The translations under genes were made by a program, and so were the position numbers. The notes beneath the pieces were generated by a model that did not search any database, was not told where the DNA came from, and saw nothing but the letters and a program-made list of their open reading frames with translations. 64,000 nucleotides of DNA, taken from the NCBI RefSeq assembly GCF_002224245.2, contig NZ_NKHK02000006.1:1-64000 (forward strand). Direction: 5' to 3'. This DNA is from Moraxella sp. VT-16-12. GTDB lineage: Bacteria > Pseudomonadota > Gammaproteobacteria > Pseudomonadales > Moraxellaceae. Positions 9,720 to 13,650 of this stretch are shown here, one piece after another. Each line of letters opens with the position of its first letter. The first letter of the stretch is position 1.

Positions 9720-9895
9720 GACTGCTCCATGATGTGAGTGTTGGGGGCTTATTGTAACAAAAAATGATGATTTTACCATTTTTATTTTGGGTTTTGAGTG
9801 GTTTTAAAAGCTGATGACTGCCAGTAAAGGCATGATGACGATGTTTGGGGCTTTTTATGTTAAAATGGTCAAGGTTTTTCTTGATTTTAGATGTT

Positions 9896-10786
9896 ATGAC
9901 TGCACCAGTTTTAAAGCACCACACCTTTAAGGACAAATTTATTGCATGGCTACATTTGACACGTTTTGACAAACCAATTGGCACAGAACTGCTACTTTAT
10001 CCGACCTTGTGGGCGTTATTTTTGGCAAACGTTGGGTTTGGGAGACTACCGAGTGTCGCTCATGTGGTGATTTTTGCGATGGGGGCAGTACTCATGCGTG
10101 CCTCAGGTTGTGCCATCAATGATTTTGCTGACCGCAAAGTAGATGGGCAAGTCAAACGCACCAAATCTCGCCCCTTGGCAGACGGACGATTGTCAGCAAA
10201 AACAGCAGTTTTGACTTTTGTTGGGTTGTCGCTTTTGGCAGCAAGTTTGCTTGTGTTTTTGCCCGTACAGGTGTTTTATTGGTCGCTCATTGCGGTGGTG
10301 CTTGCCTTTATTTATCCATTTATGAAACGTTATACCCACCTGCCTCAAGTGGTGCTGGCAATGGCGTTTGGGTGGGCGGTGCCAATGGCGTATGTGGCGA
10401 CCATTGGTAAGGTGGATGTTTGGGGCTGGCTGGTGTTTGGGGCGTATATGTGTTGGACGGTGGCGTATGACACTCAATACGCCATGTGTGATAGGGATGA
10501 TGACATAAGAATTGGTGTCAAATCTACTGCCATTTTATTTGGTCGACTGGATGTGGTCATCATCATGATGTTGCAGGCGTGTTTTGTGGGAATGATGGCG
10601 GTGGTGTTGTGGCATTATTTTAATGGTTGGGCGGTGTTAGGCATATTACCTGTGGTAGCAATGGTCATTCATCAGTATCATTTGATTAAACATAAAGAAC
10701 GTCTCAGCTGTTTTAGTGCCTTTCGTCAAAATGCGTGGGTGGGGCGGTATATGTTGCTGTTGGTGGTTGGTTGCTGTTTGTTTTAA
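9896..10786 (+). CDS. ubiA: 4-hydroxybenzoate octaprenyltransferase
   Basis: UbiA attaches the polyprenyl chain to 4-hydroxybenzoate in ubiquinone synthesis, within the inner membrane. Both aspartate-rich motifs are present: [20 protein letters not shown] (first) and [17 protein letters not shown] (second), separated by hydrophobic helices; about eight or nine membrane spans can be read. The start at 9896 (MTAPVLK) gives 296 residues, the usual size; an upstream in-frame ATG at 9845 adds an unlikely extension. No ubiC lies next to it. The polyprenyl donor would be made by the ispB product encoded near 29214. Confidence 0.93.
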
Positions 10787-10842: not shown

Positions 10843-11646
10843 TCAAATTCCATTTTGTAGCGATTTTATTTCAAATAAGTTAATTTTATCTATTTTATCT
10901 GGATGAACAACTATTCTTAATTGCGCTGGATATTTAAATCTTGTTTCACTAATTCTAAATGTCCATAGCATTATTTTTAATAACTCTTCATCAGTAATAT
11001 TTTTATGTTCTTTTATCCGAGTAATGCCAGAGCCAAATATTGGAACCGATACACTTCTTTGAGCATAAACTGCATTGATTTCGTCCCAAAATTTAATCAA
11101 AAACTCCAAATACTCCGGCATTGTTAGAACTGCTTGATTTAAATTATTAAATTTAGCAAAAGCAGTTATTAAGTATTCATCATTATATAAACAAACTGTG
11201 CCAATTTTATATTTTTGTTTTTTTCCATCAAGACGGCTTGTATTTTTTTCTAAAATATTTTCATCTCTAAATTTGTATTTATTAATGTAGCTATCTAATT
11301 CATCAACAGTTTGATTAATTATTTTTTCAATAAAAATACCATTTAAAGAAGCTTTTGAAATAATTTCATTATCTACTTTTGTATCAAAGTACTCATTAAA
11401 TGGAATGGCTTTCAAATCATCTTGAACAAAGATATCTCCAGTTACTATGGAAATAGTTGTATTTTCAATATAAAGATTAATTTTTTTCCATTTTGAGACA
11501 TATATCCATAATCCTATATAAAATAAAAAGGAAAATGTAATTAATCCAATAGGATAATAGATTTTTTCTTTTAATGGTTGATTGTCAATAAATAAAACTA
11601 TTAAACCAAATATTGTAGAGAAGGCAGAGAAATAGCTCCAAAACAT
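10843..11646 (-). CDS. Thoeris-like effector: two membrane helices plus macro domain (ThsA, type II form)
   Basis: 267 residues. Two hydrophobic helices occupy about residues 3-22 and 30-52, followed by a soluble region read as the ThsA-type macro domain (VPIFGSGITRIKEH, then AVYAQRSVSVP and a C-terminal RIVVHP). In type II Thoeris a TIR protein makes a histidine-ADP-ribose signal upon phage infection and a membrane-anchored macro protein of just this layout binds it and kills or arrests the cell. The gene downstream of the TIR gene on the same strand (gap 95 bases) supports the pairing. The insert is much more AT-rich than the flanking ubiA and mnmA, a sign of transfer. Domain naming rests on recall of the family (formerly DUF6430), not on a search. 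Confidence 0.72.
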   Translation of the reverse strand: MFWSYFSAFSTIFGLIVLFIDNQPLKEKIYYPIGLITFSFLFYIGLWIYVSKWKKINLYIENTTISIVTGDIFVQDDLKAIPFNEYFDTKVDNEIISKASLNGIFIEKIINQTVDELDSYINKYKFRDENILEKNTSRLDGKKQKYKIGTVCLYNDEYLITAFAKFNNLNQAVLTMPEYLEFLIKFWDEINAVYAQRSVSVPIFGSGITRIKEHKNITDEELLKIMLWTFRISETRFKYPAQLRIVVHPDKIDKINLFEIKSLQNGI

Positions 11647-11741
11647 TTTTCTTAAATTAGCATCAAAAAACGAACTTTCATTTATTATTCTCTAAAATAA
11701 AAAAGGAAGTTATTTCATAGAAATACTCCCCCTAACTTCAC

Positions 11742-12308
11742 TTATCTATAAAAGTAAATTCCACTATCACGTTTATTTTGAACGGTAAAATTGCTATTAT
11801 TCAATGCTTTTCGAATAGTCTCTTTTTTCATTGGGATATGCAATGTTGGTACATTTTCCATTAACTCACGAAACCTGGGTAAATTATCCCACAATGATTT
11901 AATTTTATTATTTAAATCTGTTTGTTGTGAGTTTAATAATGATGACTCATCTGAATAATCTGGATAAACCACAATAACAGGCAAACCTTTCGTTCCAATA
12001 CCATATTCAATTTCTTCGCGCAATGCTCTTGAATTTAAGGTTCTTTCACTCAAAAATAAAATGACATTTTTAGATACGCTTAATCGTTGATGAAGTCTAG
12101 GTTTTAATGTTCCCTCCTAATCACTACCATCACGCACATTGTAAGTTGCATCATGTGCATTAATGAAAGGAAAAGAGTTGTCTGCTGCTTTCCAAGCTTT
12201 CAATAAATTGTAAAAACAAAAATCTTTAGTAGCATGTGCTTTTAAATTGCTTTCACTAAAAGGCTCTTTGACATAAAATGCAGAATAATTTTTGGTTCTG
12301 TTGCTCAT
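11742..12308 (-). pseudogene. TIR-domain protein of the Thoeris-like module (ThsB), interrupted by an in-frame amber codon
   Basis: Reading from ATG 12308, 63 codons run to a TAG at 12117-12119, after VRDGSD. The very same frame then continues without a further stop for 124 codons to 11742, giving a continuous 188-codon frame with one TAG. The part just after the stop reads EGTLKPRL and then KNVILFLSERT and SRALREEIEYGI, the typical TIR core with its catalytic Glu. The family normally has Trp at the stop position, and TGG to TAG is a single change. Thus no shift occurred, only a nonsense mutation (or a base-call error). The N-terminal piece lacks the catalytic Glu; the C-terminal piece could restart only from TTG at 12053. 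As it stands the TIR enzyme should not be made. Confidence 0.8.
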
Positions 12309-12389: not shown

Positions 12390-13535
12390 TTAACCCACTG
12401 TTACATTACAACTATCAATGACACCGCCACCCAAGCACACTTCACCATCATAAAACACCACCGACTGCCCCAAAGTAACCGCTCTTTGTGGCTCATCAAA
12501 GACCACACGCACTTTGTCATCATCATGGTAAATGGTGCAGGTTTGGTCGCTTTGGCGGTAGCGGGTTTTGGCAGTAAGTTTAATGCCATCAGCAGGCGGG
12601 CTAACAACCCAGTCCAGTTTGTAAGCGGTGAGCTCAGTGCTTTGTAACATGGGGTGGTCATGTCCTTGCCCAACAATTAAGCGATTATTCACCAAATCTT
12701 TATGCAAAACAAACCACGGCTCTTCGGGGCGATTTGCCACACCGCCAATGCCAATGCCGCCACGCTGACCGATGGTGTAGTACATCAAACCGTCATGCGT
12801 GCCTAATTTTAGACCATCATCACTATAAATGTCGCCTTGTTTGGCAGGCAGATAGGTTTGTAAAAAGTCCTTAAATTTACGCTCACCAATAAAGCAAATG
12901 CCTGTACTGTCCTTTTTTTTGGCAGTAGCAAGCCCATGTTTTTCGGCAATGGCACGCACGTCTTGTTTTTCAAGTTCGCCCACAGGAAATAAAGTTTTGG
13001 CGATTTTTTCACCACTTACTGCGTGTAAAAAGTAACTTTGGTCTTTGTTATTGTCTAGCCCCCGCAACAAACACGCTTTACCATCTTGTTCAAAGCCACG
13101 CCGTGCATAATGTCCTGTGGCGATATAGTCTGCCCCAAGGTTTAAAGCATAATCCAAAAAGGCTTTAAATTTGACTTCTTTGTTGCACAAAATATCAGGG
13201 TTTGGCGTGCGACCTGATTCATATTCTTCCAAAAAATGCTCAAAGACATTATCCCAATACTCCGCCGAAAAATTGGCGGTATGAAGTGTGATACCAATAC
13301 TGTCCGCCACCGCTTGTGCATCAGCCAAATCAGTCATGGCGGTGCAATATTCGGTGCCGTCATCTTCTTCCCAGTTTTTCATGAACAAGCCTTCTACATC
13401 AAAGCCTGCTTCTTTTAATAAAACAGCAGATACAGAACTGTCCACGCCACCAGACATACCCACGATGACTTTGATGTCTTTGGGGGGTTTATTCAGGCTG
13501 GTGGCAACATCGGCAAGGGTAAAGGCTTGGGTCAT
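12390..13535 (-). CDS. mnmA: tRNA-specific 2-thiouridylase MnmA
   Basis: MnmA makes the 2-thio group on wobble uridine 34 of Lys, Glu and Gln tRNAs, taking sulfur from the Tus relay. The PP-loop SGGVDSS near residue 25 binds ATP, and the two catalytic cysteines are in DILCNKE and [10 protein letters not shown]. The start at 13535 (MTQAFTL) matches the family; the frame extends 34 codons further upstream but those residues overlap the marR promoter region. 381 residues. It borders the AT-rich Thoeris-like insert on its 3' side. Confidence 0.95.
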
Positions 13536-13621
13536 AAGATGGCTCTTTGTGGGTATTTTAAACTTAAAATTATATAGGCATGGTGGTGCATTTTGCAAGT
13601 AAACAGGTAGCAATAATTTTC

Positions 13622-13650
13622 TTGAAAAAAGTACCAAATGGTACTATAAT
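13622..13650 (+). promoter_or_regulatory. Consensus sigma-70 promoter of marR
   Basis: TTGAAA at 13622-13627 and a perfect TATAAT at 13645-13650 with exactly 17 bases between them. Transcription would start near 13657, about 58 bases before the marR ATG. Confidence 0.8.
13630..13645. promoter_or_regulatory. Palindromic operator inside the marR promoter
   Basis: AGTACCAAATGGTACT is an inverted repeat with perfect six-base arms AGTACC/GGTACT and a four-base centre. It fills the spacer between -35 and -10. A further copy of the arm, AGTACC, sits at 13661-13666, 31 bases on. The placement fits autorepression by the MarR protein encoded downstream. Confidence 0.7.

Follow-up and report, generated by a model that had tools for sequence, protein, structure and literature searches.

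Type II Thoeris is an anti-phage system in which a TIR protein (ThsB) makes histidine-ADP-ribose (His-ADPR) upon infection, and a macro-domain protein (ThsA) oligomerises and disrupts the membrane, as described in PMC11204291, PMC12948488 and PMC12360287. In intact relatives the TIR domain of ThsB would sense infection and produce His-ADPR from NAD+; the signal would bind the macro domain of ThsA, ThsA would oligomerise, and its transmembrane (TM) helices would disrupt the membrane, killing the infected cell before the phage can spread. The TM-macro systems of E. coli CFT073 and P. corrugata combine a macro ThsA carrying hydrophobic N-terminal helices with neighbouring ThsB TIR genes, of which there are two; the in vitro ligands reported in PMC11204291 are ADPR and imidazole adenine dinucleotide, and base exchange with histidine was not seen for EcThsB1. 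The same paper discusses ten residues of EcThsA, nine of which contact ligand, including Ser175 as a contact to the distal ribose, while D100 holds a loop.

A locus of this kind lies in Moraxella sp. VT-16-12, in the 64,000-nucleotide stretch analysed (the window), which belongs to a draft assembly of 60 contigs. Two AT-rich minus-strand genes at 10843-12308 are inserted between genes for UbiA (PF01040, 3.4e-59; ORF as listed 9845..10786, plus strand) and MnmA (PF03054, 7.3e-82; ORF as listed 12390..13637, minus strand, with 12393-13535 used as the protein). The closest named relatives of the window MnmA are from Moraxella cuniculi (85% identity) and M. catarrhalis (82%), in a search from which its own record may be left out. 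The GC content of the insert is 0.274 (thsB 0.312, thsA 0.25), whereas the genes on either side have values of 0.464 and 0.455 and the window as a whole has 0.423; none of 626 segments of equal length, taken in 100-base steps, is as low, and all nine of those at or below 0.32 overlap the insert. The initial annotation, which had pointed to an AT-rich minus-strand pair of a composition unlike its flanks, is borne out here, although the check it proposed placed the macro product first and the TIR product second; the two are swapped, as the TIR gene is upstream by strand. Repeat searches around the insert gave weak, scattered matches, none of which could be placed as a target-site duplication.

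Judged by their sequence matches, the two genes are a type II (TIR plus TM-macro) Thoeris pair, an already known kind of anti-phage system. The pair had been named as the membrane-macro form of Thoeris from the beginning, and matches to PADLOC models, Pfam families and solved structures support the assignment, as do plasmid operons with the same gene order. These operons, from Serratia, Klebsiella and Citrobacter (L007, L011, L141 and L142), share both order and orientation with the window, encode ThsA that is 53-58% and ThsB that is 59-61% identical, and also have a hairpin between thsB and thsA; however, their thsB genes contain no internal stop, whereas thsB in the window is interrupted and the pair is sited between ubiA and mnmA. 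As in the TM-macro systems of PMC11204291, a macro ThsA with hydrophobic N-terminal helices neighbours a ThsB TIR gene, but only one ThsB is found rather than two, it carries a premature stop, and ThsA has an N-terminus shorter by 12-14 residues (from the first in-frame ATG) and Ala at the Ser175 position. At three E. coli loci that were examined, the TIR gene near thsA belongs to another subfamily and is encoded on the opposite strand, in contrast to the same-strand arrangement in the window. A genome of the same order (L137) has a TM-macro ThsA 58% identical to that of the window, paired with a ThsB only 31% identical.

ThsA is a 267 aa protein as counted from the first in-frame ATG (10843..11646, minus strand), and no stop occurs within its 267 codons. 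It matches the PADLOC model PDLC00413 at 3.4e-108 over residues 2-267, the Pfam family PF20016 (ThsA_Macro) at 1.8e-62 over residues 65-248, and the solved ThsA macro domains in PDB entries 8v6s (1.8e-84, residues 51-267) and 8v6q (1.7e-82); NCBIfam gave no match. Going by sequence and lengths, 8v6q/8v6r and 8v6s are taken to be the ThsA of E. coli CFT073 and of P. corrugata, respectively. The N-terminus is hydrophobic, and a single-sequence AlphaFold model places helices at residues 2-18 and 23-62, with block pLDDT values of 78-91 for residues 1-50; the mean is 42.7 and the remainder of the model is unusable, the folds of both ThsA and ThsB resting on homology to solved structures. N-terminal TM helices together with a ThsA-type macro domain, as first described for this product, are thus indicated by the PF20016, PDLC00413 and 8v6s matches. 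Nine of the ten residues discussed for EcThsA in PMC11204291 are kept, when positions are numbered after the near-identical E. coli ThsA of L010; the exception is residue 164, at the position of Ser175, which is Ala in the window, Ser in seven of eight relatives and Thr in the other.

The start of thsA looks like a second defect from comparison with its homologues, eight of which begin 12-14 alignment columns ahead of the first in-frame Met of the window protein. An ATG is present near the homologous start (11679..11681, minus strand); it is out of the thsA frame, offset by 2 relative to 11646, and opens an ORF of only nine codons. The thsA frame itself runs on upstream and would encode FFDANLRK, resembling FFDRRILE in L007 and FIDKRVFE in L134, and this in-frame stretch contains no ATG, GTG or TTG. 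Translation may proceed from the internal ATG at 11646.

The gene upstream, thsB (11742..12308, minus strand), is a TIR gene of 189 codons including its final stop. Its N- and C-terminal halves match the PADLOC ThsB model PDLC00421 at 2.8e-23 and 2.3e-30, and both match Pfam PF08937 (ThsB_TIR) above its cut-off, placing a ThsB TIR gene next to thsA; the whole-genome search recovered it at 83.8 bits with one TAG inside. When read through, ThsB matches two solved structures: 3hyn at 2.4e-74 over residues 1-188, and 9uv0, whose deposited name is putative ThsB, at 6.6e-70 over residues 2-187. The macro and TIR folds proposed as a check on the family call are both matched by solved proteins. NCBIfam gave no match for the N-terminal half and one, far below cut-off, for the C-terminal half. 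The initial annotation took thsB to be an open frame of 188 codons, which it is not: codon 64 is an in-frame TAG (12117..12119, minus strand), and the gene is listed as two ORFs, of 63 aa (12308-12117) and 103 aa (12053-11742). The column of codon 64 is Trp in all seven same-subfamily homologues (L007, L011, L134, L135, L140, L141 and L142; the Klebsiella records L144 and L145, which have frame breaks, were excluded from this count), all seven being free of internal stops, and it is Trp in 3hyn and 9uv0; in four ThsB proteins of other subfamilies it is a gap. The segment SRALREEIEYGI, which includes Glu99, sits 3' of the premature TAG. Glu99 is kept in 7/7 of the same-subfamily homologues and the position is Glu in all nine rows of a broader ThsB alignment, one row being the window protein; it is the presumed catalytic Glu, and ThsB is not encoded as one continuous protein that includes it. 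A possible TTG start at 12053 precedes the C-terminal half, and the two halves could conceivably, though improbably, be translated as separate TIR pieces. The single stop aside, each half of thsB is a good match to the family, so the inactivation, if real, would be recent; the stop could also be a base error, given the draft state of the assembly.

Only one copy of each gene was found in the genome. The genome search for ThsB_TIR matched the window gene alone, which argues against a ThsB supplied by a second gene elsewhere, and the search for ThsA likewise gave one match. Suppression of the stop codon is opposed by the tRNA complement: the anticodon CUA is absent among 41 tRNA places found in the draft genome, the anticodons having been assigned with ARAGORN for the window and for 31 loci covering the remaining places, a search that a tRNA missing from the draft or scoring below cut-off would escape. 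Of the window's 32 stop-to-stop frames exceeding 250 codons, not all of which need be genes, five end in TAG.

The reading that we strongly favour is that a type II Thoeris operon was gained horizontally at ubiA-mnmA and has since been inactivated by the nonsense codon in thsB, the start of thsA probably being defective too. The thsB-thsA operon would have entered the ubiA-mnmA interval by horizontal transfer; with a TIR protein that ends at residue 63, short of the glutamate presumed to be catalytic, synthesis of the signal should fail in this strain. As far as can be judged from the letters, the locus is most likely an inactive, recently broken copy. The working defence system implied by the initial annotation fits poorly with the premature stop, the lack of another ThsB in the genome search and the absence of a TAG-reading tRNA among those found. 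The system could still be intact and active if the stop arose in assembly or if ribosomes read through it, and that there is only a single stop in an otherwise well conserved thsB, along with the retention of nine of the ten discussed ThsA residues, would agree with this; we consider it unlikely, as none of the 41 tRNA places found holds a TAG-reading tRNA, other long frames in the window terminate at TAG, and the irregular start of thsA means that one error would not explain everything.

Retention of thsA alone, as an orphan membrane effector answering an ADP-ribose-type signal from another enzyme while thsB decays, would be consistent with the uninterrupted 267 codons of thsA compared to the stop in thsB, and with in vitro binding of ADPR itself by the macro domain of a relative, reported in PMC11204291. 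It is nevertheless very improbable: the start of thsA also looks displaced, the distal-ribose contact at the Ser175 position is Ala where all eight relatives have Ser or Thr, the genome holds no second ThsB_TIR match, and an open frame says little after a recent inactivation. Phase variation is known in Moraxella, and the irregularity in the thsA frame is located in a stretch with a short T run, as would suit a reversible inactivation of the module; however, this T run is only six bases, and the stop codon in thsB lies outside any repeat tract, where slippage neither makes nor reverses it, leaving reversible inactivation the most far-fetched of these explanations. With a broken thsB as the preferred account, the locus is a further example of an abortive-infection module in decay, here at a variable site of the chromosome, and is otherwise an ordinary member of a known system; it could be listed as a complete Thoeris since family searches recognise both genes, yet its sensor is cut by a stop.

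The ubiA-mnmA interval is a variable site. Searches of 22 genomes of the genus recovered mnmA from 18 and ubiA from 20; the 18 genomes with both genes include five in which they lie within 3 kb on one contig (the window being one of these), seven in which they are far apart on one contig, and six in which they are on different contigs, so that nearness cannot be judged. The cargo differs in all five of the close arrangements, and in the other four (L130, L131, L132 and L133) it consists of a DUF805 gene, a PIN-domain gene with a small neighbour, a WG-repeat gene and a TonB-receptor gene. The initial annotation had regarded the site as a likely defence hot spot and suggested comparing the interval across Moraxella genomes; different cargo is indeed seen, among the 5 of 18 genomes that have ubiA and mnmA no more than 3 kb apart, but a hot spot for defence is only partly supported, as only the PIN-domain gene among the other four cargoes is toxin-antitoxin-like. 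PADLOC gave no match for the PIN gene, its neighbour or the WG-repeat gene.

A hairpin of -11 kcal/mol followed by six T, terminator- or attenuator-like in form, is located between thsB and thsA (11702..11733, minus strand). Its z value is -1.71, with 12 of 200 dinucleotide shuffles equally stable, and a terminator scan did not list it. Hairpins of -13.9 to -15.6 kcal/mol occur at the same place in L007, L011, L141 and L142 (0-3 of 200 mononucleotide shuffles equally stable), in a set of homologues that was hand-picked and is partly related; the stem sequences differ between the window and the four plasmid operons. No hairpin of note was found between the genes in L134 and L135, which have spacers of 25 and 11 nt, and in L140 thsB and thsA overlap. 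A conserved attenuator could hold the lethal membrane effector at low levels compared with the sensor; this is a rather doubtful reading, weakened by the T run, which reaches five or more only in the window (six), L011 (5) and L141 (7), with only 3 in L007 and L142. The hairpin is considered a small lead, not a result.

Relatives of the locus are rare in the lineage. ThsA_Macro was found in one of 22 genus genomes and four of 348 family genomes, and ThsB_TIR in one of the 22, while the protein search had matches in 3 of 390 genomes sampled from the order and in 2 of 369 sampled from the class; the genome analysed here is counted throughout. In a set of 72,556 plasmid records, 83 have a ThsA relative and 53 a ThsB relative. 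Of 5426 E. coli genomes, 202 contain DNA relatives of the locus, with 80% coverage reached in none, and a phage collection of 50,697 records gave a single match at 34.7% identity; a degenerate-pattern scan of genome contigs and viral contigs confirmed no close relatives. In a genome of the same family, a thsB-thsA pair (L135:3479-4923) is located between terminase-like and tail-fibre-like genes and is probably prophage cargo; the terminase-like gene also matches a homing-endonuclease model. In the Klebsiella records L144 and L145, the reading frames of thsB and thsA are both broken, possibly through sequencing errors. Thoeris decay is seen in other replicons as well: a Klebsiella grimontii plasmid has a thsA (L143:2300-3801) with no match to the window ThsB within 3 kb on either side, adjoining ORFs that by eye resemble transposase remnants, and in an Acinetobacter plasmid an IS4 transposase gene lies between two pieces of thsA.
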